Positions 6,104 to 27,172 of a stretch of DNA of 30,571 bases are shown here, in pieces (the stretch's first letter is position 1; every line of letters starts with the position of its first letter). The notes below the pieces were generated by a model. The model was given only the letters and a program-made list of their open reading frames with translations. It was not told the DNA's origin and did not search any database. The stretch covers positions 1 through 30,571 of IMG/VR virus record IMGVR_UViG_3300013132_000173. One strand, written 5' to 3'. The position numbers were made by a program, and so were the translations under genes. Origin of the DNA: a virus.

Positions 6104-6120
6104 CATTATCTGAGATAATG
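6104..6120 (-). promoter_or_regulatory. Palindromic ATTATC/GATAAT site
   Basis: CATTATCTGAGATAATG: perfect 8-bp arms around one base. It lies in the gap between the gp42-like gene and the ATPase gene, 22 nt upstream of the latter's ATG. On the minus strand it reads CAGATAATG. It is one of a family of sites in intergenic gaps of this genome; promoter or operator role inferred. Confidence 0.55.
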
Positions 6121-6147
6121 ACGACCAGAAAAACAGACGGCTCTGAA

Positions 6148-8301
6148 TTAGGCCGTCTGCTGGTATCGCTTGGCGACGGTCACCATGATGGTGCTGTCGA
6201 TTTCCTTCTCGTCCATGGGGGTCGAGAGCTTCTTGTTGAAGGCGTGAACCTGCGTATTGATGGACGGCAGGTCCCACCCCGCATCGATCAGGCACAGAGC
6301 GTACTTGATCATCTGGTTGTTGCGGTTGCCCGAGGCGATGCGCTGAGCAAACCAGCGTTCCAGGTTGTCCAGAGACTGCAGATTTTGGATCTGCTTCTGT
6401 CGTTGCTCGTTGCGGCTCGTCTTGGGGATGAAGTCCAGAACATCCAGGATTGTGCCATCCAGGTTGTAGAAGTGGGAGCCACCATGAAAGGACTCGGACT
6501 TCTTCTCCCGCTTGTCGTAGCTCTCATCCGTCTGGAACGGTAGCCAAGCAAAGATCCCCTGCATGAACTCCTTGTACTCATCGTTGTCGAGCTGCAGCCG
6601 ATAGTTGATGGGCAGCAGCATACGAAAACGATTGGCGCCGTCGGTATGCCGCTTGGTCGTGTAGGTGAGGAACTTGTAGTCCTTCATCAACTCGTGAGCG
6701 GCGCTGAGGCTGACGCCGCCATCGACGTCGAACGCGATCATGTTGAAACCAGCGATCACGTTCTCCTCGGAGCGGTGTCCTTGGACAAAATGATGGTTGG
6801 CCCAGTGCATACCTTCAGCCTGGGTCAGCAAGTGCAGCTGATCAAACGGTGCCTCCTCGGCCAGATAGTTGTAGGCCCAGTGGGTGGAGTAGGAGATCAC
6901 GATCTTGCTCAGATCGGTCTCCTTGAGGGTCTCACCCTTGAAGAGTTCGATCCCGTCCACGAAGGATTTCTTGATGATGATATGACGCTTGTAGCCCCAG
7001 GCCGTGGCCAGGGTCATCATCTCGTTGCGTGCAGACTGGCTTGACTTGTAGAACGGCAGGTTCTCATGCAGATCCGCGTGAGTGACCTCGGTGCCGATCT
7101 GGGCGATGTACTTGGCCAGTTTGACGTAGGTCTTCTCTCGGCTCAGAATGGTCTGGAAAGAGGAACCAGACTCCTCCACCAGCTTGATGGCCGAGTGGAG
7201 GTGCACCATTTCGACCATGGTGGAGCCATCAACGAACGCCAGGGCGCCGGCAAGCTTGAGGGCCTTGGAATGGCGGTGCTCGAGCTCCGCTTTGCGGATT
7301 TCCTCGTGTTCCGCCAGCTGGCTGGCTCGAAATAGGCAATCGTCATGATACTCGATCAGGGCGATGCCGACCGTGTCGTCCACTTCCATCTTCCAGTTGA
7401 AGACGGCCGGATCCGCAAGCCGGTAGAAAGCCTGGGTCCACTTGGTCACAGCAGCACTGTTGGCCGGATTGGTGCGCAGCTGGTACTTCTCCTCAGCGGT
7501 CATGGACGTGGAGTCGATGGACTTCAGTCCTATCCCGAAGATACAACGACGTGCATATCCGGTCTCGAGCAGCGAGTAGAACTCGTTCTCGGTCGGCCCG
7601 CCGTCGAACAGCTTGGAGGGCGTGCCGAACAGCAGCATGTTGGTCGGGGTGGTCCCATCCAGCTCCTCGCCCCGCTGATTGTCAGAGGTGTTCTTGACGA
7701 GCTTCTGCTTGATCTGTCCGGTGTCGTAGAGCTCAAGGAAAGCGGTCAGGACCTCGGTTTCACGCAGGAGGTTCGAACCGATCTCGTCGATCTGCATGTT
7801 GATCGAGCCAGCGTTGGCCATCAGCAGTTTCTGTCGCAGCTGCTTGACAGCCGGCGTCGTTCCAGAGTCGAAGGTGAACGGGTAGGCCCCGTAGGAGCGG
7901 TACTCCTTCGACGCCCGCTCGAACTCCTCGTTCTGGTCAGTTCCGTTCCTGGCCGCCCGATTGTTGGCGATGACCCAGAGGTTCTGCTCGGCAAGTACCG
8001 GCAGGGTGTCCTCCATGAAGCGGGTCTTGAACCCCTTCAGCAGTTCATTTTCGATGATCGTGACAGAGTGACCCTTGCCGAAGCCAGAGGGAGCCAGGTC
8101 AATGGCGTAGACATTGACCGGCAGCTCACCGCGGTCCTTGGTGACAATGGTGGCACGCATGGTGGCGGCCATCTTGCCGAGGAAATAGGCAATCTCGACC
8201 CGGAAGAAGCTACGATCCAGCTGCTGGGTCTTGGCACACAGGACGTCGACGAGTTCCTCAATGGCCGGATGGTGAGGGATTGCCGAAAGGTTAAGCGACA
8301 T
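6148..8301 (-). CDS. N4 gp42-like primase/P-loop replication protein
   Basis: A 717-residue protein starting at ATG 8301 (MSLNLSAIPHHPAIEEL); the open frame upstream to 8604 overlaps the nuclease gene and is Ser/Arg/Pro-rich out-of-frame sequence. FRVEIAYFLGKMAATMRATI leads to a P-loop-like PSGFGKGHS at 71-79. Later parts (TFDSGTTPAVKQLRQ, MQIDEIGSNL, MLLFGTPSKL) fit a primase-helicase-like ATPase of the DUF3987 kind, with a C-terminal half of unknown fold. N4 gp42 has the same length range and place and is required for replication as a putative primase. The start overlaps the end of the nuclease gene by 11 nt, so the two are co-translated. Confidence 0.8.
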   Translation of the reverse strand: MSLNLSAIPHHPAIEELVDVLCAKTQQLDRSFFRVEIAYFLGKMAATMRATIVTKDRGELPVNVYAIDLAPSGFGKGHSVTIIENELLKGFKTRFMEDTLPVLAEQNLWVIANNRAARNGTDQNEEFERASKEYRSYGAYPFTFDSGTTPAVKQLRQKLLMANAGSINMQIDEIGSNLLRETEVLTAFLELYDTGQIKQKLVKNTSDNQRGEELDGTTPTNMLLFGTPSKLFDGGPTENEFYSLLETGYARRCIFGIGLKSIDSTSMTAEEKYQLRTNPANSAAVTKWTQAFYRLADPAVFNWKMEVDDTVGIALIEYHDDCLFRASQLAEHEEIRKAELEHRHSKALKLAGALAFVDGSTMVEMVHLHSAIKLVEESGSSFQTILSREKTYVKLAKYIAQIGTEVTHADLHENLPFYKSSQSARNEMMTLATAWGYKRHIIIKKSFVDGIELFKGETLKETDLSKIVISYSTHWAYNYLAEEAPFDQLHLLTQAEGMHWANHHFVQGHRSEENVIAGFNMIAFDVDGGVSLSAAHELMKDYKFLTYTTKRHTDGANRFRMLLPINYRLQLDNDEYKEFMQGIFAWLPFQTDESYDKREKKSESFHGGSHFYNLDGTILDVLDFIPKTSRNEQRQKQIQNLQSLDNLERWFAQRIASGNRNNQMIKYALCLIDAGWDLPSINTQVHAFNKKLSTPMDEKEIDSTIMVTVAKRYQQTA

Positions 8302-9274
8302 AGTAGAGGTCTTTCTGCTTGCAAGCATTGAAGGCCGGACAGAATTCACAGGCTCTGACCTCACCAGGAACGGCGATGACAATGCCTTTCCCGCCCTTCG
8401 ATGCCATGAAGGCATGAGCTTCCGCTTTGTCGTCGAAATTCTTGGTAGACCGGCCCGTCGTTTTGGTCGGATCCGAGTAGTACTTGTAGACGGTCTCGCC
8501 CCGCCAAAGCTCCTTGTCGGTACAGAACGGGATGCTCTCGTCCGGAGAGTCCCAGTACTGTTGCAGTTGAAGCAGCTTGTTGCGGATGTAGTTCTCGGTC
8601 TCATCGATCGAGGGCATCTTGACCGGATACTCGAGAGCCTTGGTCTGGGGGTAGTCCTGGTCCCCTCTGGCTCGAGCTTTCTGCCAGTCCGTGAAGATGA
8701 ACTGGATGTAGATGTGATCGTCCGTGATCAGCTCGGGATTGAGCCAACGATAGATGCCCCCCTGCCAGGCATAGTCCGCATCCTTGCGCCCCAGAAGGTA
8801 CGCATAGACTGATGTGGACTTGGCATCGAAGAGCCTACCGTCAATCACCTGGTCGAACTTGCCACCGATCTTGTAGGTGGTGCCGTTGACCTCGATCTCC
8901 TTGAAAGCCCGCTGCTCCATCCAGATCGGGATCAGGTCTGGATTGCTTGCAAGCTGCTCCGGGCTGGGGTTCACCTGGACGTTGGTGTAGATACGCTCAG
9001 GATATCCCAGCTTCTTCATGGCCCAGGATCCCGAATGTACCCACGCCTTCTCGATCGAGTCGTGGATGGCAGTGCCCATTCGGGATGCAAGGAAGGCTGA
9101 GATATCGAGCTCTCGATCAGCTTGGTTCACCCTCCTGGAAAGCACAAGCTGACGGGTGGACTTCAGCAGGCTGGTGGCGGAGATGTAGTTCGGCTCGTCG
9201 ATGTAGTCGTACTCATCGTGAAGCAGCCACACGGCAAGTGGCAGCGAGATGCCGTGAATATTGGTCAGTTTCAT
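8291..9274 (-). CDS. PD-(D/E)XK nuclease, Cas4/RecB-like (N4 gp43-like)
   Basis: A 327-residue protein. ATG 9274 is chosen because TGAGGCC lies just before it; the TTG at 9286 is inside that site. His 71 (AIHDSIE), then GGKFDQVIDGRLFDAKS (137-153) with Asp 141, Asp 150 and Lys 152, form the PD-(D/E)XK nuclease core. The C-terminus has a cysteine cluster (CEFCPAFNAC) which, with a possible further Cys, recalls the iron-sulfur site of Cas4/AddB-type exonucleases, though the N-terminal Cys of that site is not evident. N4 gp43 occupies the same place. It probably degrades or processes DNA ends during replication or recombination. Confidence 0.8.
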   Translation of the reverse strand: MKLTNIHGISLPLAVWLLHDEYDYIDEPNYISATSLLKSTRQLVLSRRVNQADRELDISAFLASRMGTAIHDSIEKAWVHSGSWAMKKLGYPERIYTNVQVNPSPEQLASNPDLIPIWMEQRAFKEIEVNGTTYKIGGKFDQVIDGRLFDAKSTSVYAYLLGRKDADYAWQGGIYRWLNPELITDDHIYIQFIFTDWQKARARGDQDYPQTKALEYPVKMPSIDETENYIRNKLLQLQQYWDSPDESIPFCTDKELWRGETVYKYYSDPTKTTGRSTKNFDDKAEAHAFMASKGGKGIVIAVPGEVRACEFCPAFNACKQKDLYYVA

Positions 9275-9327
9275 CGTTGGCCTCAAATTCTGGGGATGCT
9301 TCGCCGTAGATCAAAAGACCTTTCAGC

Positions 9328-9341
9328 ATTATCTCGATAAT
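9328..9341 (-). promoter_or_regulatory. Palindromic ATTATC/GATAAT site
   Basis: ATTATC-TC-GATAAT in the 74-nt gap upstream of the nuclease gene, 54 nt before its ATG. The minus strand reads CGATTATCGAGATAATG. The longer context (CATTATCTCGATAATCG) extends the symmetry. Probable phage promoter or operator, by recurrence. Confidence 0.55.
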
Positions 9342-9348
9342 CGACGGG

Positions 9349-10112: not shown

Positions 10113-10532
10113 GAGGCTCTCCAGAAAATGTGGAATAAGGGCTGACGGGAGTCGCTGTGGGGCAACTCTAGTCGCTCAGGGGGGATTATCATAGGAGATT
10201 ATCTGGTAATCCGCCACAGTTTCTTGTGATGGATTATCGAGAAAACCAGAACCTACTAGATGTAGTGGGTGGATGTCGGCAAGGGCCTAGCCGACGCTCT
10301 CTTCCGAGTCGCTCGTTGCTGCAAACTATGGGCTGAGCCGCCCAGGACCGATACGCAGCTCCGGTCATCGTTGCCTGTTCAGGCGAAATTCGTCAGAGTT
10401 TTTTCATGAGGACTATCAGACATTTGACCTCGCTCCGCAGATAACGCTCTGCTGTTCGGCGTCCGGTTCTCTCCGCGAGACAAAGACGCTGCAGGCACCG
10501 GCAACCCCGCCCACCTTCTCGTCGCCCGCAGC
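10113..10532. other. 420-nt intergenic region with ATTATC half-sites and hairpins
   Basis: The longest stretch without a convincing gene. It holds three ATTATC half-sites (10185-10190, 10198-10203, 10233-10238) close to the downstream gene, and a GTCGGC/GCCGAC hairpin (10275-10295). On the minus strand a 14-codon frame starts with ATG near 10424 after a GAGG; its reality is doubtful. No T-rich terminator is clear after the polymerase gene. Possible contents are a promoter array, a replication origin or an untranslated RNA; none can be proved by eye. Confidence 0.5.
10185..10238 (-). promoter_or_regulatory. Cluster of three ATTATC half-sites
   Basis: GGATTATC at 10183, GAGATTATCTGG at 10195 and GGATTATCGAG at 10231; on the minus strand these read GATAATCC, CCAGATAATCTC and CTCGATAATCC. 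They lie 73-126 nt upstream of the gene at 10112. They match the motif family seen before other minus-strand genes and may be a promoter or operator array. Confidence 0.45.
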
Positions 10533-13214: not shown

Positions 13215-13246
13215 TAAGTCCTCTGAAGGGTGTAAATAGGGGGCGG

Positions 13247-13258
13247 ATTATCTCAATA
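13247..13258 (-). promoter_or_regulatory. GAGATAATC site upstream of DNA polymerase
   Basis: Plus strand GGATTATCTCAATA; on the minus strand TATTGAGATAATCC, 33 nt before the polymerase ATG and overlapping the last codons of the gp38-like gene. A reversed copy (TTGAGATAATCC on plus) is at 13310-13321 within the same gene. Only one half of the palindrome is well kept here. Confidence 0.45.
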
Positions 13259-15181: not shown

Positions 15182-15619
15182 TTACTCTTCGTCAGGAATT
15201 TCGAACTTGCGGCGATCCTTGCCGCGGATCCAGGTGGGCTCCTTGCCGCGCCCAGACCAAGTGACACCAGTGGCAGGATCCCGGTATTTCTGGACCGCCT
15301 TCATGCCCTTGCGCTTGATCTTCAGACCACCAAGGGCATCCACGAGCTCGTCGATGGGGATATGGTGACCAATCACGACATCGACGATCTGTGCGATGAT
15401 CGCTCGCTTCTCAGCTTCCTTCTTCTCACGGATCTTCCGATCGATTTCCTCCTGTCGGCGCTGAAGTTCCGCGACAGTCAGGTCATCCAGTTTCGGATCG
15501 GTTTCCATGATGTGAACGTCTTTGTGTTCAGTGGGTACGGCTGATCCCTCGGTTGCTCGAGGGAAATTTAGGCGCGGTGTGGCAGGAATATCTGGCTCTG
15601 CCCGGTCATCTGCACTCAT
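15182..15619 (-). CDS. H-NS-family DNA-binding protein
   Basis: A 145-residue protein. Residues 40-100 (DDLTVAELQRRQEEIDRKI onward, charged heptads) form the helical oligomerisation region of H-NS proteins, and KYRDPATGVTWSGRGKEPTW (111-130) is the C-terminal DNA-binding loop with the conserved TWSGRG core. H-NS proteins bind AT-rich DNA and silence foreign genes. A phage copy may replace, block or redirect host H-NS or organise the phage's own DNA. ATG 15619 has AAGGAACT before it; an internal ATG at 15508 would give the usual H-NS N-terminus but has no ribosome-binding site, so about 37 residues are an extra N-terminal extension. Closed by an intrinsic terminator. Confidence 0.88.
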   Translation of the reverse strand: MSADDRAEPDIPATPRLNFPRATEGSAVPTEHKDVHIMETDPKLDDLTVAELQRRQEEIDRKIREKKEAEKRAIIAQIVDVVIGHHIPIDELVDALGGLKIKRKGMKAVQKYRDPATGVTWSGRGKEPTWIRGKDRRKFEIPDEE

Positions 15620-15719
15620 AATTTCAGTTCCTTAATGGATCGTCATTGTGGCTCGCTCCATTGTGGCCTGAGACAGACTCGCAGCCGGTTAGGGGTTTCA
15701 CAGACCTTTTCGACTCACG

Positions 15720-17730: not shown

Positions 17731-17828
17731 CACTCGGATCTTATGATGAAGATGGGGTGCTCAGCCTCGACGATGATCGAGGCGACCTCCTCGGCGAACT
17801 GCCGGACGATCACAGTGAATTTGGGCAT
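17730..17828 (-). CDS. Very small coupled gene, 32 aa
   Basis: A 32-codon frame starting at ATG 17828: MPKFTVIVRQFAEEVASIIV then EAEHPIFIIRSE, stop TGA 17732-17730. It exactly fills the space between two genes, with one-base stop/start overlaps (TGATG) on both sides, which argues strongly that it is translated. The content looks like a beta strand, an amphipathic helix and a second strand. Function unknown. Confidence 0.6.
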   Translation of the reverse strand: MPKFTVIVRQFAEEVASIIVEAEHPIFIIRSE

Positions 17829-18265
17829 CAGACGTTGATCCTCTCGCAGAGATTATTGATGGTGTTGTCGTTCATTAGGGCGTTTTTGCCGCCATCGGTG
17901 GCAATCTCGAGCAGTCCATCGTTGATGTAGGCAGCGCCGTCGTTCACCACGTCGTTCCACAACCGCAGGGCAGCGAGGATCATGTCGCGTTCAACAGGCT
18001 TGAGCCGCAAATCCACGTAGTCGTAGGCATCGTGGATCTGTTTGACTGCTGCCTCGAAGTTCTCAGCCGTGATCTCCTTGGTGCGATCTTCGAAGAACTC
18101 AGCGTCGTCGAACTCGGGGACGTTTCCGTTGGGTGTCCAGGTTACGATGTTTCGGGTCGTCCAGGCGCTGGCGCGCTGTAGTGCTTCAGCTGGATCAGAC
18201 GCTTCGACGACCCCACTGTATTCGATGTAAGCATCCTGGCCTTTTACGACCTCAAAGAATGGCAT
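17828..18265 (-). CDS. Hypothetical protein, 145 aa
   Basis: Not recognised. ATG 18265 begins MPFFEVVKGQDAYIEYSGVV, followed by EASDPAEALQRASAW and an acidic middle (VPEFDDAEFFEDRTKEI), reminiscent of small phage proteins with a sandwich fold at the N-terminus. The C-terminal half is helical (DMILAALRLWNDVVNDGAAY). No catalytic motif. It overlaps the end of the GcrA-like gene by 14 nt and is coupled to the 32-residue gene downstream. Confidence 0.65.
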   Translation of the reverse strand: MPFFEVVKGQDAYIEYSGVVEASDPAEALQRASAWTTRNIVTWTPNGNVPEFDDAEFFEDRTKEITAENFEAAVKQIHDAYDYVDLRLKPVERDMILAALRLWNDVVNDGAAYINDGLLEIATDGGKNALMNDNTINNLCERINV

Positions 18266-18776
18266 TGGGATTTCTCTTGATGGTGTTGCGATCCAGATGG
18301 TGGGGGCAGTACCGCGCACCTGATCCGCACGGCATTCCGCAAAAGAGGTGCGTCTCACCTTTCTTCGGATTGTTGACTGGCCAATGACACTGCTGCTGGG
18401 TAAGCTGTTCCAGCGTCAGATGCATCGAGGCCGCGTCGTACTCCACACCACCGGGAGGGATTCGAACCTGGTGTGCAGGGTGCTTAGGAGGGGCAGCCTC
18501 CATCGTCACTGTCTTGGACAAGACAGCCACCTTGTTTGACCCCTTTGGGATCTTGCGCCGCGTCTTGTCTGCGTGTGGGTGTGTGTCGCCATTGAGAGGG
18601 TGCGTCTTCTTCAGCACCGGATTGCGGGTGTACAGTCCCAGCAGAGAATTGCGGCTGACGGCGTACCCCTGTGTCGACGCGATCTTGCCTGCCAGGGTAG
18701 TTGCAGAGCATCGCTCGAACCAATGCTTTTGGATCAGCTCAATCCTCGAAGTCCGATCAAGAGACTGCCAGGTCAT
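18252..18776 (-). CDS. GcrA-family cell-cycle regulator
   Basis: A 174-residue protein. ATG 18776 follows AGAAGG. Residues 1-50 (RIELIQKHWFERCSATTLAG, YAVSRNSLLGLYTR) form the N-terminal HTH that in GcrA recognises methylated GANTC-type promoters. A long basic linker follows, and the C-terminus has the GcrA sigma-factor-binding pattern: LTLEQLTQQQCHWPVNNPKK, HLFCGMPCGSGARYCPHHLD, with Cys 130, 146, 150 and 157. GcrA binds the primary sigma factor and activates transcription in alphaproteobacteria. A phage copy could steer host RNA polymerase. The linker gene sequence contains a tRNA T-arm-like GGTTCGAATCC (about 18451-18475). It overlaps the deaminase gene by 20 nt. Confidence 0.82.
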   Translation of the reverse strand: MTWQSLDRTSRIELIQKHWFERCSATTLAGKIASTQGYAVSRNSLLGLYTRNPVLKKTHPLNGDTHPHADKTRRKIPKGSNKVAVLSKTVTMEAAPPKHPAHQVRIPPGGVEYDAASMHLTLEQLTQQQCHWPVNNPKKGETHLFCGMPCGSGARYCPHHLDRNTIKRNPNAIL

Positions 18777-19212
18777 CTGAAACCTTCTCGGGATGGTAAG
18801 GATTGAGCTGGACCCAGGCTTCACTGAACATCTGGGTGGCGGCCTGGAATTCCTCAGAAGGCATGCTTGTGGCACCGGGACCGAAGACGACCTTGGCAAT
18901 TCCAGCCTGGATCAACGTTCGGGCACAGGATGAGCAGCACATGTGAGTCACATAGACAGTGCAGCCTTTGGTATGGATGCCTTCTCGAGCCGCAAAGGCG
19001 ATCAGGTTGGCTTCGGCATGGGAGGCGAACAGATATTTGGTTGGCCTCTGACGACGAGCCTCGGTATCGATCACGCCCTTGGGCGGACCGTTGTAGGCTG
19101 TGAGGCGAACCTCCCCATCGGATCCAACGAGAATGGCGCCCACCTTGGTGCTGTCCTTGGACTTGAGGGCGGCGTGTTGGGCAAAGCCCATGTAGTAGTC
19201 CTGCCAGTTCAT
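18757..19212 (-). CDS. Deoxycytidylate (dCMP) deaminase
   Basis: A 151-residue protein starting at ATG 19212 after CAGGAACC; the frame runs upstream into the tRNA-like element but that part is not protein-like. Zinc site: HAEANLIAFAAREG at 65-78 gives His 65 and catalytic Glu 67; CSSCARTLIQAGI from 93 gives Cys 93 and Cys 96. The N-terminal STKVGAILVGSDGEV and YNGPPKGVIDT fit the dCMP deaminase family and its substrate loop. It converts dCMP to dUMP for ThyX, in the same direction downstream. A 20-nt overlap couples it to the GcrA-like gene. Confidence 0.9.
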   Translation of the reverse strand: MNWQDYYMGFAQHAALKSKDSTKVGAILVGSDGEVRLTAYNGPPKGVIDTEARRQRPTKYLFASHAEANLIAFAAREGIHTKGCTVYVTHMCCSSCARTLIQAGIAKVVFGPGATSMPSEEFQAATQMFSEAWVQLNPYHPEKVSDDLAVS

Positions 19213-19240
19213 GGCGCTGGTTCCTGTTGAAAAAGGTGAT

Positions 19241-19329
19241 GGCCCCGGGAGGATTTGAACCTCAGCGGTCTTGCGACACATCGGATCCCTGTGGAGGTAG
19301 CGGCAGCTCGCCTGGCTGCTTCCGGGGCC
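19241..19329 (-). tRNA. Degenerate tRNA-like element (89 nt)
   Basis: On the minus strand GGCCCCGG (19329-19322) pairs with CCGGGGCC (19248-19241) like an acceptor stem, followed by A. The 3' arm GAGG-TTCAAAT-CCTC is a textbook T-arm, and GCAGC-CAGGCGA-GCTGC resembles a D-position arm. The middle contains a GTC-GCAA-GAC tetraloop hairpin and CACA...TGTG, but no 5-bp anticodon stem with U33 can be formed, so the anticodon cannot be assigned. The length suits a tRNA with a long variable arm. CCA is not encoded. It is either a decayed tRNA or a tRNA mimic. It ends 28 nt before the deaminase start. Confidence 0.4.
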
Positions 19330-19336
19330 TTGGGAT

Positions 19337-19419
19337 TAGGTGACTCTCGTCGTGTGGCGGAATACTCGCCGCGGCAGTCGCCCCTATCGGCTTCACTGCA
19401 CCGCTCAGAGAATCACCTA
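19337..19419 (-). other. Cruciform-like RNA stem with 12-bp base
   Basis: On the minus strand TAGGTGATTCTC (19419-19408) pairs with GAGAGTCACCTA (19348-19337), one wobble. Inside are GCGG(tg)CAGT paired with ACTGCCGC and a small GGCG-AGTATTC-CGCC hairpin with a 7-nt loop. This gives a multi-branched fold of tRNA-like outline directly after the VWA gene and before the tRNA-like element. No T-run follows. Role unknown; RNA processing or translation control of dCMP deaminase is possible. Confidence 0.5.
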
Positions 19420-19424
19420 AAGGC

Positions 19425-20639
19425 TTATCCGTTCAGGTGGAAAATGGACCCATGGGGGACCACTGCACTCCGGTTGTTGAGTACGATCCAGATGATAGGA
19501 ATATGCGCTGCTTCGATGGGTAAGGCTTCCATCGGGTTGCACTGCAGATCGGAGAAGATCACCACCGCAGAGGGCTTGTGTTTGATGATGTGGTCACGCA
19601 CACAAACCAGAGAGGTACCACCTCGACCCACGATCTTCACTTCCTCGAAAGGGTCTTCCTTCAGGAAGACGTCCTCCTTCTGGATGATCGTGTCGAACTG
19701 GACCATCGTCATCTTCTCGGGCTGGAAGTAGTCGTGGACGTGCTTGAACTCCGAGTTGAACCGGACGGCGTCAGCATCGCTGATCGAGCCGGACACATCC
19801 TCATAATAGATGATGTGTGCGAGACCGTTGTATTCCTCCTGCAATGACGGCAAGTAGAGTTCCTGATATCGCCGGTTCGGCCTGGCCCAGCTGTAGTCGC
19901 TGCCGCCCAACTCATTGAAGAAATTGAACAGGGCCTTGTCCCAGTCGATCTTGGGCTGGAGGAACCGGCTCAACGTCACCTCGATGTCCTCAAGAACATT
20001 TCCACCTGCCAGCTTTGCCTGGTGTGCGGCCGAGATAACATTGCTCAGAGCATTGTGCATCATGGCCTGGTGGGTGTCGGTTTCCTCTGGCTCAACCAGA
20101 TCCGACGCATCATACCCACCTGTATTGGGGTCGATGAGCCACGGCGTATTCCATGGCATTGCCGGTGAAGGCTGTTGCGGTCCAAGGGAGGCGATGATCT
20201 CATTACGCTCCCGGATCAGGTCATCGTAGATGTCCTCGGTGACCCAGTTCTCGTACTTGAAGTTGTGCCAGGGCTTGAAGCCCTTGAAGCTGTAGCCTTC
20301 CCGGATCAGGGTGTTGTTGATCCAGATGTCCGCAGCATAGTTCCAGATCTCCGGATCTCTGGATCCTCGACGCAGCATGTCGAGTCTGGCGGGATGCCAG
20401 AGCTCGTGCATCAGGATGGTCTTCCTGGTCTCTACTGGCATAGCCAGGAAGAAATGCGGGTTCCAGAGCAGAGACACGCCGTCGGTACAGGCGGTTTGGA
20501 TATCCGTGACCCAGGAGAAGTTCAGCGAGCACATGAGCGGGCCGAGAAAAGCGGCGTTCTTGTTCAGAAACACCTGGGTCTTGGTCCGATCCATCTCGCG
20601 ATCGAGCATGGTGTAGTCGATGTCGGGCAACTGGCTCAT
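19425..20639 (-). CDS. Metallopeptidase-like/VWA protein (N4 gp25-like)
   Basis: A 404-residue protein starting at ATG 20639 after AGGAGA. The N-terminal half holds HELWH at 78-82 in the pattern ILMHELWHPARLDMLRRG followed by WNYAADIWINN, the zinc-peptidase-like domain of the DUF2201 family. The C-terminal half is a VWA-like domain with DVSGS at 281-285 (MIDAS-type), then RGGTSLVCVRDHI and AVVIFSDLQCNP. In N4 and relatives gene 25 lies beside the AAA ATPase gene 24, as here. Such MoxR/VWA pairs often act as metal-insertion or remodelling chaperones; their role in N4 infection is unknown. The start overlaps the small upstream gene (ATGA). Confidence 0.85.
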   Translation of the reverse strand: MSQLPDIDYTMLDREMDRTKTQVFLNKNAAFLGPLMCSLNFSWVTDIQTACTDGVSLLWNPHFFLAMPVETRKTILMHELWHPARLDMLRRGSRDPEIWNYAADIWINNTLIREGYSFKGFKPWHNFKYENWVTEDIYDDLIRERNEIIASLGPQQPSPAMPWNTPWLIDPNTGGYDASDLVEPEETDTHQAMMHNALSNVISAAHQAKLAGGNVLEDIEVTLSRFLQPKIDWDKALFNFFNELGGSDYSWARPNRRYQELYLPSLQEEYNGLAHIIYYEDVSGSISDADAVRFNSEFKHVHDYFQPEKMTMVQFDTIIQKEDVFLKEDPFEEVKIVGRGGTSLVCVRDHIIKHKPSAVVIFSDLQCNPMEALPIEAAHIPIIWIVLNNRSAVVPHGSIFHLNG

Positions 20640-20911
20640 GACCAAGTCTCCTGGAGAAATTTCTGATATACCTGAGGAACATAGGCGTTGTTGACCGATG
20701 ACAGGGTGCGCTCGTCTTCGGTAACGAAAACACCCCGATTGTGGTGCGGGAGGGCAATGACGAACTCGCGTCGATCATTGTACCCTCCCCAATGCTGCCA
20801 GTTGATGGCTCGCATGGCGTCTTCTCTTGAACCGTACCCCTCGAGCCAAAGGGGAAAGCCGGCGTGTCCATCCTGGTCTACTGCCAAGACATAGAGCCGG
20901 CGTTTGGCCAT
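20636..20911 (-). CDS. Hypothetical protein, 91 aa, between AAA and VWA genes
   Basis: Not recognised. MAKRRLYVLAVDQDGHAGFP, then GSREDAMRAINWQHWGGYND, suggests a small alpha/beta protein. ATG 20911 shares one base with the stop of the AAA ATPase gene (TGATG), and its own stop overlaps the VWA start (ATGA), so the three are translated together. It may be an adaptor of the AAA/VWA system, by position only. Confidence 0.65.
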   Translation of the reverse strand: MAKRRLYVLAVDQDGHAGFPLWLEGYGSREDAMRAINWQHWGGYNDRREFVIALPHHNRGVFVTEDERTLSSVNNAYVPQVYQKFLQETWS

Positions 20912-21966
20912 CACGCCGCCTTCGCTACGTCGTCATGCAGGTAACGACTCAGCTCGACCATCGACTGACGGAACGCCTGGTGCTGCTTGAGATGCGGCTT
21001 CTGGATCATCAGGCTGCGGAAGAACAGCACCCGAAACTCGGCAGTGAATCGGCCGAGATAGGTAGCCACAGCACTGAAATGATCCTCATCGACGTTCTCG
21101 ATCAGGTGCGTGATGGTGGCCCACCTGGTTGCCGAGTCAGTCGGAACACCAATGGTGTCGGGAGACCGCACGATGTCCACAAACCTCGGGAGGGAGGCAT
21201 AGACCTTGGTGAACTGGATGAAGTCGACGGCCACTCCAGAGGTGATGGCGCCGGCATAGAGGGCTGCATCGCTGTCGAGTACCGCGTTGCCCTTGATCAG
21301 CTTGTTCATGAACTCCCAGGTCCGAGGGGACGCAAAGGTCTTCTCGTTGTGATCAGGCCGGAAGTCGTGGAGTGCCGACTTCTTGTAGTTCAGGTAGGCA
21401 ACGATGCGGCTGTCCCACTGTTGGGCCAGTGCCACGTCCTCCATGAACTCGTCGAAGCTCAGATCCATCTCGAGATGGATCAGCCGGCTTTGCATGGCTG
21501 TGGAGATCGGATTGACGATGGCCCGATCGGTGCTCTTGTTGCCCGCGGCAACCAAGGCAACCCTGGGGTGCAGCTTCTTGAGACCGATCATGCGATCGAG
21601 GACGAGCTTGTAGGCAGCGGCCTGAACCATCTTGGAGGCCGAATTGAACTCGTCGAGGAACAGCATCCATCCATCCTTGCCGGGCGGGACGGGGGTATCC
21701 TCGGTGGGGAACGTGTCGAACGGGGCGAAGGTGGCAGTACCGTCCGGCAGGAAGTGCGGCAGACCAGAGAGATCCTCCGGCGCCGAGGTCGACAGACGAT
21801 GGTCGATCAGCTCGAGGTTGTACTCCTTGGCGATCGAGGCCACCATTGCGCTCTTGCCCATGGCCGGCGAGGACTGGATGAACGGCACCAGGCCGACCAT
21901 CATGCACTTGATCACATAGCCGCGAGCCTGACGGGGCGTGACGGTATAGGCGGAGATGCCGCTCAT
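20911..21966 (-). CDS. MoxR-like AAA+ ATPase (N4 gp24-like)
   Basis: A 351-residue ATPase. SSPAMGKSAM (32-41) is a Walker A variant with GKS, MLFLDEFNSA (101-110) is Walker B, and VALVAAGNKSTDRAIVNPIS is the sensor-1 block. STAPEDLSGLP-like text (STSAPEDLSGLPHF) just after Walker A is typical of MoxR proteins. The helical lid covers residues 230-351. MoxR ATPases remodel or load metal cofactors with VWA partners; the partner gene here is at 19425-20639. ATG 21966 has AAGGA 10 nt before it. Confidence 0.88.
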   Translation of the reverse strand: MSGISAYTVTPRQARGYVIKCMMVGLVPFIQSSPAMGKSAMVASIAKEYNLELIDHRLSTSAPEDLSGLPHFLPDGTATFAPFDTFPTEDTPVPPGKDGWMLFLDEFNSASKMVQAAAYKLVLDRMIGLKKLHPRVALVAAGNKSTDRAIVNPISTAMQSRLIHLEMDLSFDEFMEDVALAQQWDSRIVAYLNYKKSALHDFRPDHNEKTFASPRTWEFMNKLIKGNAVLDSDAALYAGAITSGVAVDFIQFTKVYASLPRFVDIVRSPDTIGVPTDSATRWATITHLIENVDEDHFSAVATYLGRFTAEFRVLFFRSLMIQKPHLKQHQAFRQSMVELSRYLHDDVAKAA

Positions 21967-21985
21967 TGATGTGTTCCTTCTTGGT

Positions 21986-22024
21986 TCAGTGATGGAAAAT
22001 GAAAATGTCGTCGAGCTGGATCAT
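21986..22024 (-). other. Possible mini-gene or frame-shifted tail
   Basis: ATG 22024 opens MIQLDDIFIFHH (stop 21988-21986). The same frame is open back to the end of the upstream small membrane gene and reads as sensible acidic sequence (ESIPSEHYPEEQEMIQLDD). A +1 shift at ACC-TGA of the upstream gene would join them. With no start beyond the ATG and a purine run too close to it, it remains a candidate only. Confidence 0.25.
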
Positions 22025-22061
22025 CTCCTGCTCTTCGGGGTAGTGTTCACTTGGGATCGAT

Positions 22062-22220
22062 TCAGGTGCAGTGCATGTTGATCATGTCATCGAGGGTGCC
22101 AATCAGCCGGTCAGTTGTCCGGCCGCCGACATCGAAGGCGTACCCGAATACCAGGCCAACTGAGACAGCTATCACCGAGATGATGGCCCAGGCGATAAGC
22201 GCCTTGAGGTACTTACTCAC
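22062..22220 (-). CDS. Small single-helix membrane protein, 52 aa
   Basis: GTG 22220 is chosen because GGGAGG lies just upstream and the start overlaps the preceding gene by 8 nt (GTGAGTAA). The sequence has one membrane helix (residues about 6-26, ALIAWAIISVIAVSVGLVFG) and a soluble tail (GGRTTDRLIGTLDDMINMHC). Not recognised. The small region downstream is open in the +1 frame. Confidence 0.55.
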   Translation of the reverse strand: MSKYLKALIAWAIISVIAVSVGLVFGYAFDVGGRTTDRLIGTLDDMINMHCT

Positions 22221-22518
22221 TGCATCCTCCCATGACCTTGCTCTCGACCAGACGGTCGAATTCGTCTTCACTGATGTCGTCTGATCTGTCCTGTGGGGGT
22301 CTGTTGGTCAGCTCGTCGAAGCGCCATTCCTCGCCGTCCTCGCAGATGTAGACGCGGGATCCCCGGCTCCAGACGGTCTTCTGATCGTCCCACCAGACCT
22401 TGGTCTCTCCGTCGTAGATCGGCTCGCCGTCGGTTTTGTATTCCTGGGTCAAAGCAGTGCCGGGCACCGTCTCCTTGGTGCCGATGATCTGCTTGCCGGA
22501 AGGGGTGTAGAGCTTCAT
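22213..22518 (-). CDS. Hypothetical protein, 101 aa
   Basis: Not recognised. The N-terminal half is beta-rich (KLYTPSGKQIIGTKETVPGT, PIYDGETKVWWDDQKTVW) and ends in YICEDGEEWRFDELTNRPP; the C-terminus is acidic and helical (DDISEDEFDRLVESKVMGG). ATG 22518 overlaps the upstream stop (TAATG) with GGAGAG upstream, so coupled to the HTH/integrase-like gene. Confidence 0.6.
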   Translation of the reverse strand: MKLYTPSGKQIIGTKETVPGTALTQEYKTDGEPIYDGETKVWWDDQKTVWSRGSRVYICEDGEEWRFDELTNRPPQDRSDDISEDEFDRLVESKVMGGCSE

Positions 22519-22943
22519 TACTGACTCTCCTGGTTCAAATTAACGGGACGGATCACGAGCTCGAGCCCCAAAACAGCCAATGCCGCTTCCATGTTGAGGA
22601 CGCTGGCCGAGGCCTTGCCGGTCTTCCAGCAGTAGAGGGTGTTGACGTGGATGCCGCTCTTTTCGGCGACCTCTTTGGTCGCCAGATAGCGGTCTTCCCC
22701 ACCGTTCTTCACGTATCGGTCCGCCGCTGCATTGAACGTGATAGTGGGTTCTCGACCGGTGATATTCTGCTCGGCGACCGAGTCTTCGATCTGCCGTCGG
22801 ATGGCATCGGCCTGCCTGAAATCCCGGGTTTTGGTGGACTTGAGGCGAACCTCTCGAGGCATGGCTCTTCCATCTCGCCATACGGTGACAGTGCCTGAGA
22901 CGTACCAGAAGCCGTTTTCGTGCTGAGTGAGCTTGAGGGGCAT
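22518..22943 (-). CDS. Integrase N-terminal-like domain joined to XRE-type HTH
   Basis: A 141-residue protein. Residues 1-80 (MPLKLTQHENGFWYVSGTV, RLKSTKTRDFRQADAIRRQI, TFNAAADRYVKNGGEDRYL) follow the N-terminal arm/core-binding part of proteobacterial tyrosine integrases. The catalytic domain is absent. Instead residues 88-135 (TKEVAEKSGIHVNTLYCWKT, LNMEAALAVLGLELVIRP) form an XRE-type HTH. The result looks like a regulator built on an integrase fragment. ATG 22943 has AGGATGATCGA before it, and the gene overlaps the excisionase-like gene in another frame. It could bind attachment-type or promoter DNA; integration is not possible with this protein alone. Confidence 0.65.
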   Translation of the reverse strand: MPLKLTQHENGFWYVSGTVTVWRDGRAMPREVRLKSTKTRDFRQADAIRRQIEDSVAEQNITGREPTITFNAAADRYVKNGGEDRYLATKEVAEKSGIHVNTLYCWKTGKASASVLNMEAALAVLGLELVIRPVNLNQESQ

Positions 22944-23131
22944 TCGATCATCCTATCGGCCAGCTGCTGCAATTGGTCCTGGTTCAGCTTAACGTTTCGG
23001 CCATGTCTGACAAATGGGATCTGATGCCTTCGGATTAGGTCCCGAACATAACGAACAGGATCGGCCACATCGTCACAAGTTATCCCCAGCGCTATAGCAG
23101 CAGTGATCAGGGTGTATAAGTTGGACCCCAT
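22709..23131 (-). CDS. Excisionase/HTH-like small protein with overlapping tail
   Basis: ATG 23131 follows AGGAG. Residues 1-62 (MGSNLYTLITAAIALGITCD, VRYVRDLIRRHQIPFVRHGR, VKLNQDQLQQLADRMIE) look like a MerR/excisionase-type winged HTH. After residue 63 the frame is Ser/Pro/Arg-rich (CPSSSLSTKTASGTS) and overlaps 235 nt of the integrase-like gene in another frame. Alphaproteobacterial excisionases often end in a CPS-type tail overlapping the integrase gene, so the arrangement may be inherited from a temperate element. The exact protein end is uncertain. Confidence 0.5.
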   Translation of the reverse strand: MGSNLYTLITAAIALGITCDDVADPVRYVRDLIRRHQIPFVRHGRNVKLNQDQLQQLADRMIECPSSSLSTKTASGTSQALSPYGEMEEPCLERFASSPPKPGISGRPMPSDGRSKTRSPSRISPVENPLSRSMQRRTDT

Positions 23132-23132
23132 C

Positions 23133-23453
23133 TCAGGTTTTCTCCTGATAGGTTGAGTCTTCTTGAAGGGTCAGCGAAGAAGCTCCGTAAAGTCTGTTTT
23201 GAGGAGACTCTACGGTTGCCCACATAGTGAGTACCTTCCAAAACTTCTTATGTGTCAACGTCTGGTTAGGACGTAGATTACAAGCATTGGCCACCTGAAC
23301 AGGTACTCTGAACTTCGCCCCCCTACAAAAGACGTGTATATCTGTAGTATGGTTCAAGTGTCCCTCTTGGACTTGTTTAAATCCAGACTTAGTGTGCGTG
23401 GTTGTACATACTAGTACCGAATTTTTAAGCAGAGGGAAGCCACTATGTTCCAC
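23133..23453 (-). CDS. Doubtful ORF in AT-rich segment, 106 aa
   Basis: An open frame with a GTG start and no ribosome-binding site, ending one base before the excisionase-like ATG. Codon use is unlike the neighbours: third positions are often A or T (AAA, ACT, GTA, CTA runs), whereas nearby genes prefer C or G. The protein (FCRGAKFRVPVQVANACNL, NQTLTHKKFWKVLTMWATV) has no recognised domain. It is either a recently acquired gene or a leader/promoter region with an accidental frame. TTGACA and TTGAAC elements lie inside. Confidence 0.3.
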   Translation of the reverse strand: MEHSGFPLLKNSVLVCTTTHTKSGFKQVQEGHLNHTTDIHVFCRGAKFRVPVQVANACNLRPNQTLTHKKFWKVLTMWATVESPQNRLYGASSLTLQEDSTYQEKT

Positions 23454-23482
23454 AATATGGTGAGGTTTATTGAATGGTTAAC

Positions 23483-23515
23483 AAAAAAGACCTGGCTCCT
23501 TTCGAAGCCAGGTCT
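23483..23515 (-). terminator. Intrinsic terminator of decoration-protein gene
   Basis: On the minus strand AGACCTGGCT (23515-23506) pairs perfectly with AGCCAGGTCT (23497-23488) across an 8-nt loop, followed by TTTTTTG. It lies 27 nt after the stop of the gene at 23542 and should separate that strongly expressed gene from the units below. Confidence 0.9.
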
Positions 23516-23541
23516 CGGAATAAGTTCGAGTTATTGTCTTA

Positions 23542-24051
23542 TCAGGTAGCGGTGATCGCCACCTCGACAGTATCGGCAGTGTGCTTGTGGGTCGCTGTGA
23601 TGATGCACTCGCCGGCAGCCACGAACGTGACCACTCCGGCGGTGGACACAGTGGCCACGCCGGTGCCCGACGACACGTAAGTGAAGTCGTCGTTGACCGC
23701 AGCCACATCAGCCAGCTGGTACTTGATGACGATGGTCGCCGTCCCAGGGTCGTTGTCGATCTCCAGACCGGCCGCGGTCATGTACTCGGAGGCAAGAGCT
23801 CCGCTGAACACGATCGAGATCCCCTGCATGTTCTGGATGCCCTGCTGACGATACAGGGCTTCCTGGATGTCCCGGTAGATCGGATGGTTCTCGGGGTAGT
23901 CACTGACCAGGTCCGCGGCTTCGGTGCTGCCGAGCTTGGCGTGATCGATGTCAGTGAGGGTGGTACCGGCGGTGACAGGGAGTGCATCGCTGAGTACGGT
24001 GACCCAGCAGATGGTCTTTGCGGTGTTGATCCGCAGATTGAGATTGCTCAT
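23542..24051 (-). CDS. Head decoration protein, Ig-like (N4 gp17-like)
   Basis: A 169-residue protein. The C-terminal 55 residues (DDFTYVSSGTGVATVSTAGV, VTFVAAGECIITATHKHTAD) form a bacterial Ig-like (BIG2) domain. The N-terminal part (NLRINTAKTICWVTVLSDAL, YPENHPIYRDIQEALYRQQG) is specific to the family. In N4 the Ig-like decoration protein gp17 is encoded directly after RNAP2, as here, and sits on capsid hexons. The unit is well insulated: an ATTATC/GATAAT palindrome upstream (24117-24131), a hairpin-prone leader, AGGA before ATG 24051, and a strong terminator after. This layout suggests high expression independent of its neighbours. Confidence 0.78.
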   Translation of the reverse strand: MSNLNLRINTAKTICWVTVLSDALPVTAGTTLTDIDHAKLGSTEAADLVSDYPENHPIYRDIQEALYRQQGIQNMQGISIVFSGALASEYMTAAGLEIDNDPGTATIVIKYQLADVAAVNDDFTYVSSGTGVATVSTAGVVTFVAAGECIITATHKHTADTVEVAITAT

Positions 24052-24116
24052 TATCTATCGTTCCTGAGTGGAGAGGGGGCCCGCTCCCCGAAAATCAGGA
24101 AGCGAACCCACTATAT

Positions 24117-24131
24117 ATTATCTCCGATAAT
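24117..24131 (-). promoter_or_regulatory. Palindromic site upstream of decoration protein
   Basis: ATTATC-TCC-GATAAT; on the minus strand GATTATCGGAGATAATATATAGTGGG. It is 66 nt before the ATG, in the gap after RNAP2, and the downstream gene is closed by its own terminator, so this is the best candidate in the window for a real promoter core. TATATAG after the palindrome may be the initiation region. Confidence 0.6.
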
Positions 24132-24140
24132 CAGGAAAGA

Positions 24141-24936
24141 TTAACTCAAGGCGTAGTTCGCCTCACGGACGTCGTGAGCCAGGTGCGGATCGAGCTTGCC
24201 CGCCTGGATCGGGCGCTTGCAGATCTGGGAGACGATCGAGCTGAGCATGTCAGACTCGGCAATCTCGGCCAGAATGGTGTTGTACTGCCGGCGCAGATCG
24301 TTGCCGTAGTTGGGCAAACACCTGAAGCAGTCATGGATCGAGATGACCTGGAAAGGTCTGTCCGGCAAGCTGTCGATCAGCTTGGAGATCGCATTGTGTT
24401 CAACCAGGCCCATGTTGTCGATGTCCAGGTAGTTGAGGATCCTTGCTGAGAGGAAGCCGGTATCCTGGTAGTGCTGCCAGAGCGTCTGAACCAGTGCATC
24501 CTGCGGCCGATGGGTGTTGCGTCCCCTGGCTCCGACAGCAATGTGGTTGGTCAGGGTTGCTATCTTCGCTGGGTCATAGCTGCAACGACGCTGCATCTCC
24601 CGAACCACCATGCCGTCGATGGAGTGAACCATGTTGGCGCCGAGGGATCGACCACCTTCGATGGGGATGTTCTGGTACTGGGTCACCTCGAAGGGCTCGT
24701 CCAGGAAGTGCACGATCTCTGTGACCGGACCCATGACCTTGATCTTGACATGGAAATTGTCCGGCAGGATCCAGGAGTTTTCGAGCGCCGTCTTATCCCA
24801 GATGGCGAGCATGGTCTGATTGATCTCCCAGGCCCCGGGAGCATTGCTCTCCACGGTGTCGTAGAAAACCTGCAGCAGCTCCCCGTCACCAAAGACTCGC
24901 TTCGGCACAGCCGTCGAGCTGTAGAAGGCCGTCATA
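24141..24936 (-). CDS. RNA polymerase RNAP2, exon 2 (C-terminal part; N4 gp16-like)
   Basis: Exon 2 begins at base 24936 (T) and supplies the last base of codon 137 and residues 138-401 of the spliced protein. It carries the rest of motif B (Met138, Tyr142 in MTAFYSS), then GRSLGANMVHSIDGMVVREM and the motif C strand VISIHDCFRCLPNY, with the second catalytic Asp at 339. These match the T7-like single-subunit polymerase C-terminal half. The ATG at 24935 gives an open frame by itself, but no ribosome-binding site precedes it and the product would lack both motif A and most of motif B. The spliced length (401 aa) matches the N4 RNAP2 size. It pairs with RNAP1 to make the middle polymerase. Confidence 0.9.
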
Positions 24937-25261
24937 CAATACGTTCAACAGAGGTCGTTAATCTCTGCCCGCAGCTTTACCTGCAGCTCCATGTTACCAA
25001 GGAGTTCGGACTATATCATGCACGGTTTTCCGTGCCCTCGCGCTTCGACCCACTTGGGCCTACTCTACTAGGTTCAGCTTGTGCTGCCGTTCGATAGTCT
25101 CTGCACTTTCCGATTGTTCAAGACAACCTCACACATCATGTCTTGAACATAGAAACCTCCAGTTGAGTTTTCTATGTATCGGCTTAGCTCATGATTGTCC
25201 AGGATTAGCTGGGTTTTCCATGAGTTCACGAGGTTTAAAGGCCACCATGATTTAGTGGTTA
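24937..25261 (-). ncRNA. Group I intron in the RNAP2 gene
   Basis: A 325-nt ORF-less intron. P1: exon end GGCCAU (25267-25262) pairs with the guide GGUGGCC (25246-25240), with the required U-G at the splice site. P10: exon 2 UAUGA pairs with UCAUG next to the guide. P7: GACTA (25099-25095) with TAGTC (25013-25009) inside the classical GCAGAGACTA and GATATAGTCC elements. P8: GCACGG-AAAA-CCGTGC (25035-25020). The last intron base is G. A 10-bp GTTCAAGACA/TGTCTTGAAC hairpin (25148-25116) lies upstream. Splicing restores the frame exactly (410 + 796 nt = 402 codons). No homing endonuclease is inside; the flanks have none that I can recognise. Confidence 0.93.
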
Positions 25262-25671
25262 ATGGCCTGCTTGGTCAGCTTGCGGTCGATCTTGGCGGTG
25301 CCGCCCATGGTAGCAACCATGTCCTGATAGATGGACACATAGGCGTCTCGCCGATTTCCGGTGTCGACGACGTTGGAGATCTCCGCGGCCCTGCGATCGC
25401 ATGCCAGGACAGCCAGGATCTGGATCCCGGAAGAAGTGGCATCGAGGGAGATTGGATAGCCGGAAGGCTTTCCGGCCTTGGCATCCTCCCAGGCCAGCAT
25501 GCCAGCGTAGAAGAGTGCGGGCTCATCGGCCTTGGAAACCAGGTTCTGCAGGTCGTGTTCGTTGGCATCGAACCAGGCGAGGCGCTCATCCCAGGTGAGC
25601 TTGTCGAGCCCGAAAGAGCCGGCGATGTCGATCTTCAGATACTCGCGTCCAGTGAAGGTCTGGAAGGTCAT
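25262..25671 (-). CDS. RNA polymerase RNAP2, exon 1 (N-terminal part; N4 gp16-like)
   Basis: ATG 25671 follows AGAGG. Exon 1 encodes residues 1-136 and two bases of codon 137. GREYLKIDIAGSFGLDKLTW matches the linker after the T7 DxRGR block; SLDATSSGIQILAVL (76-90) is motif A with catalytic Asp 77; and KIDRKLTKQAI (127-137) is the first half of motif B with Arg 130 and Lys 134. Without splicing, translation stops three codons into the intron, right at motif B. Spacing R130-K134-M138-Y142 after splicing equals R627-K631-M635-Y639 of T7 polymerase, though the usual Gly after Tyr is Ser. Together with RNAP1 it should form the heterodimeric middle RNA polymerase. Confidence 0.9.
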
Positions 25672-26964: not shown

Positions 26965-26980
26965 GTGGTTCTTCAGATGT

Positions 26981-27008
26981 GAAAAGAGCCCCTCTTTCGA
27001 GGAGCTCT
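26981..27008 (-). terminator. Intrinsic terminator/attenuator
   Basis: On the minus strand AGAGC-TCCTC-GAAA-GAGG-GGCTCT folds (arms 27008-26999 and 26994-26985), followed by TTTTC. It lies 17 nt before the ATG at 26964 and downstream of the ATTATC pair at 27154-27172, so it either ends a small RNA or attenuates the genes that follow. Confidence 0.75.
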
Positions 27009-27153
27009 CATGAAGCCGATGGAGTGTTTATCTCTAGAAGACCCCTCCTAACCAACTCCGGAAGCAGGGAGCTGGGTCCGTCTTCGGCGGGTGAGGGTGG
27101 AAGCGTCAAAAGCGAGCCAGGTGGTCAAGCGTTTGTTCCCTCGTTCAGACCTG
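27009..27153 (-). ncRNA. Structured untranslated RNA or leader (candidate)
   Basis: About 145 nt with no gene, bounded by an ATTATC pair upstream and an intrinsic terminator downstream. Its core folds as three stacked stems on the minus strand: GAAGAC with GTCTTC, CCC with GGG, and AGCTCC with GGAGTT around CTGCTTCC (about 27035-27093). This is the layout of a small RNA gene or of an attenuated 5' leader. No known family is recognised. Confidence 0.4.
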
Positions 27154-27172
27154 ATTATCGTCTCCGATTATC
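27154..27172 (-). promoter_or_regulatory. Tandem ATTATC pair, 13-bp spacing
   Basis: ATTATC at 27154-27159 and 27167-27172; the minus strand reads CTGATAATCGGAGACGATAATC. The pair lies directly after the stop of the gene at 27182 and upstream of the structured segment. Matches the genome's intergenic motif family. Confidence 0.5.

Follow-up and report, generated by a model that had tools for sequence, protein, structure and literature searches.

GATAATC repeats in the intergenic gaps of a clade of N4-like phages and a candidate repressor encoded beside the integrase

The window (the whole stretch of DNA analysed, 30,571 nt) corresponds to the half of an N4-like (Schitoviridae) phage genome that holds the middle genes. 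Short repeats built on GATAAT are found in its gaps, and all of the copies listed in a preliminary description of this DNA exist, as dyads, direct repeats, a triple and singles. On the minus strand, the dyad CATTATC-TCA-GATAATG (6104-6120) overlaps a position at which the Sak4-like gene may start, and GATTATC-GA-GATAATG (9327-9342) lies upstream of the exonuclease gene; the orthologous gap of the related contig G8 reads GATTATC-AA-GAAAATC. Three half-sites (10184-10238, minus strand) are located within the gap of 420 bp that follows the DNA polymerase gene, and their layout is retained in G8 as GATTTTC-TCT-GAAAATC plus GATAATC. The single GATAATC immediately before the DNA polymerase gene (13246-13252, minus) recurs at this position or close to it in G8, G2, L005, G3, and G17. 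Another single GATAATC (15719-15725, minus) is present in the gap separating the phrog_6377 HTH gene from the H-NS gene, and the direct pair GATAATC-AGA-GATAATC (10 bp; 16096-16112, minus) precedes the phrog_6377 HTH gene. Between RNAP2 and the Ig-like gene lies the dyad GATTATC-GGA-GATAATA (24116-24132, minus), followed by a terminator-like hairpin; this dyad is conserved in G8 and G17 and lost in G4. The last pair is direct, GATAATC-GGAGAC-GATAATC (13 bp; 27153-27172, minus). The shared minus-strand sequences were also described correctly, with GAGATAAT at 9328, 13247, 16097, and 24117, and CAGATAAT at 6105 and 10198. Several copies had been missed: a GATAAT copy, TAGATAATG, that overlaps the Ig-like gene at its start codon (24050-24055, minus); three copies (3285-3326, minus) within an ORF for a small Ile-rich membrane protein (3203-3388), the G8 version of which also has GATAAT copies; and single in-gene copies at 13314 and 29716. 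Some sites in the window are followed by TATGAT/TATRGT.

GATAAT occurs 21 times in the window against 7.5 expected, and none of 100 shuffles reached this number. In an unbiased scan of all hexamers, ATTATC/GATAAT ranked at the top for gap enrichment in the window (15 gap and 6 gene copies, p 2.4e-12). Comparison with dinucleotide-shuffled gaps gave 18 observed and 1.8 expected copies, a count in which the ORF at 3203-3388 was left uncalled by the automatic gene set, 15 being the safer figure. The unit of the motif is AGATAATC, and it mostly has a partner copy, often degenerate, at 9-10 or 13 bp. Because GATWATC and its reverse complement hardly differ, "direct" and "inverted" pairs are almost equivalent.

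In relatives of the window phage, the gaps have the same 7-mer as their dominant word. When nine contigs were pooled, it was found 130 times in gaps against 8.5 expected from dinucleotide-shuffled gaps. In the window, as in all well-covered contigs of the group, the motif ranked first or close to first among gap-enriched words. Near-complete related genomes carry 33-50 gap copies of GATAAT each, and here, too, the motif is far commoner in gaps than in genes. The profile of the nine contigs has AGATAATC as its consensus; about 10 bp upstream of it lies a W-rich partner, and spacings peak at 9-10 and 13 bp. The G and C at the ends of the GATAATC word are strictly kept. The motif-bearing relatives form one clade, and the motif was absent from the other N4-like phages tested outside it. 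Within the clade it has been lost in a single branch (G4, L149, and also G437), and in L052 and G8 the consensus has drifted to GAAAATC. Thus, GATAATC repeats in intergenic gaps are confirmed as real and as common to a small group of related viruses. An effect of chance or composition in AT-rich gaps would call for the higher AT content that gaps do have relative to genes, but the excess over dinucleotide-shuffled gaps, the lack of a comparable excess in motif-free relatives with similar gaps, and the conserved positions of sites in orthologous gaps make it very improbable.

Sites were found in early, middle, and late regions and in both orientations. The bias toward the sense strand noted in the preliminary description is marked in the window (15:3) but weak across the clade (127 sense:85 antisense). 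Site density reaches 11/kb in gaps of 41-80 bp versus 3.6/kb in gaps longer than 300 bp, and the densest sites are in short gaps within operons. It had been suggested that the motif is either the promoter of the RNAP1/RNAP2 polymerase or an operator for a phage regulator; the operator fits best. As promoter elements, the sites would serve the split RNAPII together with a double-strand-binding factor ("protein X" of the N4 model) or the host RNA polymerase, with GATAAT as a -10 box. Most window sites are indeed sense-oriented and upstream of genes, some have the TATGAT/TATRGT words after them, the middle-gene location is shared with N4 RNAPII promoters, and the N4 model includes a protein recognising and melting double-stranded middle promoters (PMC4496689). 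However, sites are also present in early regions and upstream of late plus-strand structural genes, 40% are antisense over the clade, they are dense in tiny gaps inside operons, N4-like relatives with the same split polymerase do not have them, and the aligned profile has no downstream position at which a base is strongly preferred. The minimal middle promoter of N4 RNAPII is an AT-rich stretch from -7 to +2 (PMC4496689), whereas the sites described here are strict and paired, and extend beyond the middle region. Some dyads resemble the early hairpin promoters of N4 vRNAP in having a 3-nt centre, but most have other spacers or are direct repeats, and they occur far outside the early region. 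RNAPII, vRNAP, and sigma70 promoters all have the wrong distribution and orientation, and a promoter function is considered unlikely.

In the window, an integrase/XRE module falls within the longest stretch of gap sequence that has no sites (16342-23541). The module includes an in-frame fusion of a tyrosine-integrase N-terminus with an XRE/HTH_3-like domain (22518-22943, minus), which is a candidate repressor and from which the integrase catalytic domain is missing; its integrase part is 70% identical to the G1 integrase and its XRE part 69% identical to the XRE protein of G8 (G8 64666-64908). An HTH_17-like (excisionase-like) ORF (22709-23131, minus) overlaps the start of the integrase remnant. 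The longest site-free run also holds this module in G1, G8, and G16 (permutation p 0.013 for the window and 0.026, 0.022, and 0.0014, respectively); for G17 the p value was 0.135. Integrases were identified in G1, G8, and G17, and none is intact in the window. They are present in three of four near-complete motif-bearing contigs versus about 2 of 20 motif-free ones (p 0.018), although these genomes are related and few independent events lie behind the co-occurrence of motif, XRE, and integrase. In G8 the 3' half of a tRNA lies between integrase and XRE; a tRNA search of the window returned none. G17 begins at an ATG and stops at the integrase stop codon, like a trimmed provirus, and an XRE gene on the attP side could lie beyond the end of this contig.

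The XRE domain is a weak HTH_3-like match (21.9 bits, cut-off 23). In fold, a confident AlphaFold model of the XRE protein (pLDDT 88) comes nearest to HipB and to other operator-binding proteins of the Cro/C1 type. Members of the family occur in the window, G1, G8, G16 (a remnant only), and G17 (with a different recognition helix). In fragments G3 and G18, no XRE gene was found in the covered part between RNAP2 and the AAA gene, its place in the window, G1, and G8, and an XRE scan of viral contigs matched only G8 itself. In a screen limited to proteins of up to 220 aa, only the H-NS and XRE families were present in all four near-complete motif-bearing genomes and in almost no motif-free ones. 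The branch that has lost the motif retains H-NS and lacks the XRE of the module family and, where complete, the integrase.

The phage H-NS family protein (15182-15508, minus; PF00816, 43 bits, above the cut-off) is the rival candidate among these two families. The sites could be nucleation points from which it spreads to silence or organise the genome; close homologues are encoded in every motif-bearing contig covering the region, fragments included, and an oligomerising silencer would suit the variable spacing and orientation of the sites. Against this, motif-free G4, L149, and G437 have an H-NS with an identical WSGRGKEP DNA-binding loop, and the strict G and C ends agree better with an HTH dimer that reads the major groove than with AT-minor-groove binding. 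We rank H-NS second because the motif-loss branch keeps it, and consider this role improbable. The phrog_6377 HTH protein (15771-16079, minus), named earlier as a possible regulator, was rejected as the determinant of the motif. It is nearly universal in the N4-like phages checked and has the same recognition helix with or without the motif (e.g., in G3 and G4), and therefore cannot explain a clade-specific site. A peptide-pattern scan of viral contigs returned no close relatives of this protein, which were found by other routes. Binding by another phage or host regulator, such as an activator or a replication or partition protein, has a similarly small chance: no candidate binder is perfect, and some motif-bearing fragments carry a ParA gene (G3, without integrase in its covered part), but ParA-bearing N4-like contigs outside the clade lack the motif, and among small proteins only the H-NS and XRE families track it.

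The reading that we prefer, and regard as evenly balanced between right and wrong, is that GATAATC pairs serve a phage repressor as binding sites and that this repressor, acting at many places at once, keeps the genome of a temperate N4-like phage silent. We infer that the XRE protein binds the sites, that binding represses, and that these phages form lysogens. The candidate is the small, predicted dimeric Cro/C1-type (XRE, HipB-like) protein encoded beside the integrase and attP. It would bind GATWATC-N2/3-GATWATC, with half-site centres 9-10 bp apart, about one DNA turn; its predicted target in paired form is GATTATCNNGATAATC, and GATTATCGAGATAATC is a candidate paired site with GAAAATC as the variant form. 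By occupying short gaps in the early, middle, and late operons, the repressor would block initiation or elongation at these points; the lysogeny module itself is free of sites. Dimer sites about one helical turn apart are shared with HipB and Cro/C1-type repressors, which the candidate matches best in fold; the HipB operators known so far are few and local and are not spread over a whole genome.

A closer precedent is offered by the stoperators of Cluster A mycobacteriophages, bound by L5 gp71, in which dozens of copies of one short, mostly intergenic site are spread genome-wide; Cluster A phages carry an integrase or parABS, and the lytic derivative D29 lost its repressor while the sites persist (PMC6550527, PMC5712189, PMC9283540). 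The two systems share at least 20-30 mostly intergenic copies per genome (15 in the 30-kb window, and the copy numbers given above for near-complete relatives), an integrase (G1, G8, G17) or ParA (G3) in the clade, and a consensus that drifts between relatives. The stoperators of L5 are 13-14 bp, have no dyad symmetry, and are oriented with transcription (PMC6550527, PMC5712189, PMC9283540), whereas the sites described here are near-palindromic pairs of about 16 bp with a weak orientation bias over the clade. The phages also belong to another family, the sequences are unrelated, and the repressor is a candidate from sequence. Like D29, the window phage may have lost lysogeny and kept the sites; it may be a virulent derivative, given the truncation of its integrase and the fusion of the remnant to the XRE domain. 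The fused protein is possibly non-functional.

N4-like phages have long been regarded as strictly lytic, and an N4-type phage carries its early RNA polymerase in the virion. As this polymerase arrives with the particle, an incoming relative could not be stopped by ordinary repression of a host-read promoter in the lysogen, but would be stopped by a large number of roadblock sites distributed along the genome. More tentatively, and with considerable doubt, we propose that lysogeny in temperate N4-like phages is controlled by genome-wide repressor roadblocks, with the gene of a small HipB-like repressor beside attP, stopping three different polymerases, including the virion-injected one of a superinfecting phage. 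To our knowledge, no immunity system has been proposed before for this family. Integrase-bearing N4-like phages and proviruses were reported in 2023 in a paper whose text, when searched, gave no match for a repressor (PMC10654107). If the proposal is confirmed, a single small protein and a 16-bp site would suffice to test the question of lysogeny, and the stoperator principle, a rarely seen switch, would be extended to a family unrelated to the actinobacterial phages.

A prophage search across 84,980 bacterial and archaeal species gave one match, a contig of a Methylophaga MAG without the motif, and 398 genomes of the same phylum yielded no other; no prophage belonging to the clade was detected in this collection. 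The integrase-bearing contig G24 has a gap motif of its own, AAACCCAGA, which is sense-only and adjoins start codons; it resembles a translation leader and is not a comparable site.

With its 30.6 kb, the window covers the half of an N4-like phage genome that carries the middle genes. On the + strand it holds the terminal part of the gene for the virion RNA polymerase (1-534) and, on the minus strand from right to left, pieces of RNAP1/RNAP2, AAA, vWA, ThyX, an HTH protein, an H-NS-family protein, helicase, DNA polymerase, exonuclease, primase, Sak4, and SSB; genes were called with our own codon-usage script, and some of these names are our reading of the sequences. By DNA polymerase, the closest named relatives (57-59% identity) belong to the Schitoviridae and infect rhizobia, Erwinia, and Pseudomonas. 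The RNAP2 gene, uninterrupted in the related contig G8, is split into two pieces (25252-25671 and 24141-24935) by a group I intron-like element on the minus strand (24987-25271; Rfam RF00028, 49.8 bits with a gathering threshold of 50, E 8e-12).

All ATTATC/GATAAT copies listed in the preliminary description were found in the window; it had overlooked one at 24050 and three at 3285-3326, within a small membrane-protein ORF. When all hexamers were scanned, with no motif supplied beforehand, ATTATC/GATAAT was the most gap-enriched, with 15 copies in gaps totalling 2.6 kb vs. 6 in genes totalling 28 kb (p 2.4e-12). Dinucleotide-matched shuffled gaps gave 1.8 copies vs. 18 observed (one small ORF counted among the gaps). 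GATWATC is nearly its own reverse complement, the strands being distinguishable solely by the central base pair; thus the "palindromes" and "direct repeats" described earlier are one design, a pair of half-sites whose centres lie 9-10 or 13 bp apart. The profile of 228 gap copies from nine contigs is AGATAATC, preceded by A (54%) and followed by C (57%) or G (24%). One helical turn upstream there is a W-rich stretch, in our reading the trace of a degenerate partner half-site. The strictest 7-mer was GATAATC (130 observed vs. 8.5 expected). GAAAATC is a second, weaker form, dominant in contig L052 (5 vs. 0.2 expected) and frequent in G8 (12 vs. 1.4). Motif clusters were also seen inside the coding sequence of an Ile-rich small membrane-protein gene in several relatives (window 3203-3388; G8 43317-43499; G17 about 20748-21073), reflecting either codon coincidence or dual use.

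Relatives were retrieved via their DNA polymerase, primase, and AAA genes, and the motif status of many contigs is based on ~22 kb around one gene. The motif ranked at or near the top of the gap words in G1 (contig L003, 74 kb), G8 (L051, 78 kb), G16 (L144, 69 kb), and G17 (L145, 73 kb), as well as in G26/G18, G3, G2, and L005. This held for no other N4-like contig tested, ort11 and Zuri among them. The motif bearers group as one clade (support 0.956) in a tree built from 98 DNA polymerase sequences; a single branch nested in that clade (G4/L148/L149) is without the motif. It is also missing from G437; the H-NS-like proteins of G437 and L149 share their C-terminal sequence.

Sites occur in early, middle, and late regions of the near-complete genomes; in G1, 13 of 34 lie within the late + strand region. 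Their density peaks in short gaps (11/kb in gaps of 41-80 bp vs. 3.6/kb in gaps >300 bp), and 127 are sense vs. 85 antisense relative to genes. Sites are kept in the orthologous gap before DNA polymerase in the window, G2, L005, and G3, and further upstream in G8 and G17. Before the Ig-like gene, the window and G8 have CCTGATTATCGGAGATAATRTATRGTGGG in the gap, and G17 has a close variant; in motif-negative G4 the terminator-like part is retained and the dyad is gone. In the window, G1, G8, and G16, the longest stretch of consecutive gaps with no site spans the same module, made up of an integrase gene and a small XRE-type HTH gene or of what is left of them (site permutation over gaps, p 0.013, 0.026, 0.022, and 0.0014, respectively; 0.135 in G17; these values are not independent because gene order is common to the contigs).

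Tyrosine integrases (PF00589), not closely related to one another, were identified in G1, G17, and G8; the closest in the phage collection are from alphaproteobacterial phages. An integrase was present in three of four motif-positive vs. about 2 of 20 motif-negative full-size contigs (Fisher p 0.018; since the genomes are related, such counts overstate independence). Between integrase and XRE, G8 carries a tRNA 3′ half, recognised by eye, as is typical of an attP core. The G17 contig runs from an ATG to the stop codon of the integrase, the pattern of trimmed proviruses, and that of G1 starts with a bacterial-looking transporter-like gene and tRNA-Ser, which we read as putative host DNA. These edge genes (L027:48-1328) adjoin the integrase and resemble an integrated-prophage boundary; the orientation of the tRNA is opposite to the usual attachment layout. 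At 22518-22943 of the window, an integrase N-terminus (70% identical to G1) is fused in frame to an XRE domain (69% identical to G8). The catalytic part and attP are missing, as if a deletion had taken them out. G16 is without an integrase and retains an XRE remnant only, at the expected place of the lysogeny module, adjoined by a DNA ligase-like N-terminal fragment (about 39500-40150). The two phages may be virulent derivatives, by analogy with D29, which derives from an L5-like parent (PMC5712189), or the losses may be metagenome assembly artefacts.

Two protein families are candidates for binding the sites. Among proteins of ≤220 aa (larger ones were compared by tblastn only), H-NS-like and XRE families were present in all four near-complete motif-positive genomes and hardly occurred in others. 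The H-NS-like protein (PF00816, 43 bits) occurs in every motif-positive contig covering its locus, and, with an identical WSGRGKEP loop, in motif-negative G4, L149, and G437. Neither an XRE of this family nor an integrase was found in G4 or G437; motif loss thus tracks loss of XRE and integrase, not of H-NS. The window copy (15182-15508) corresponds to phrog_10171 (function listed as unknown), and Agrobacterium phage OLIVR1 has a relative at the equivalent place. HipB heads the fold matches of the G8 XRE model (pLDDT 88), P22 c2 and controller proteins rank lower, and the E-values are weak owing to the small domain. Against XRE as the binder, G17 XRE has a different recognition helix, and the G3 and G18 fragments showed no XRE gene at its window/G1/G8 position.

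From the sites, their distribution, the clade, the module, and its co-occurrence with the motif, we infer XRE binding, repression, and lysogeny. In the prophage state an XRE dimer would occupy GATWATC pairs in every class of operon, blocking transcription; the module, which would need continued expression, is free of sites. N4-type phages carry their own polymerase into the cell (PMC4496689); reasoning from this biology, immunity to a superinfecting phage would need sites that stop elongation. L5-type stoperators, 20-30 in number, lie between genes, point in the direction of transcription, lack dyad symmetry, and belong to phages with integrase or parABS (PMC6550527). GATWATC sites are alike in number, place, and lifestyle but differ in symmetry and orientation; we therefore do not class them as L5-type stoperators, although they would work like stoperators. 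A 2023 paper described integrase-bearing N4-like phages and proviruses; a search of its text found a repressor nowhere mentioned (PMC10654107). Among the papers searched, none linked N4-like phages to stoperators.

A ParA-type ATPase gene was seen in many N4-like contigs (G3, L033:10594-11289; G021, G029, G030, G032, G039, L180, L187, L189, L195, L199, L202, L203, L205). Several of these have a different gap word, CACACC/ACACCA, and the ParA bearers are possibly a phage-plasmid lineage with its own sites. In G24 (contig L158) a leader, AAACCCAGACCAA, precedes the start codons of about 20 genes, nearly always in sense orientation, making a non-Shine-Dalgarno translation signal a possibility.
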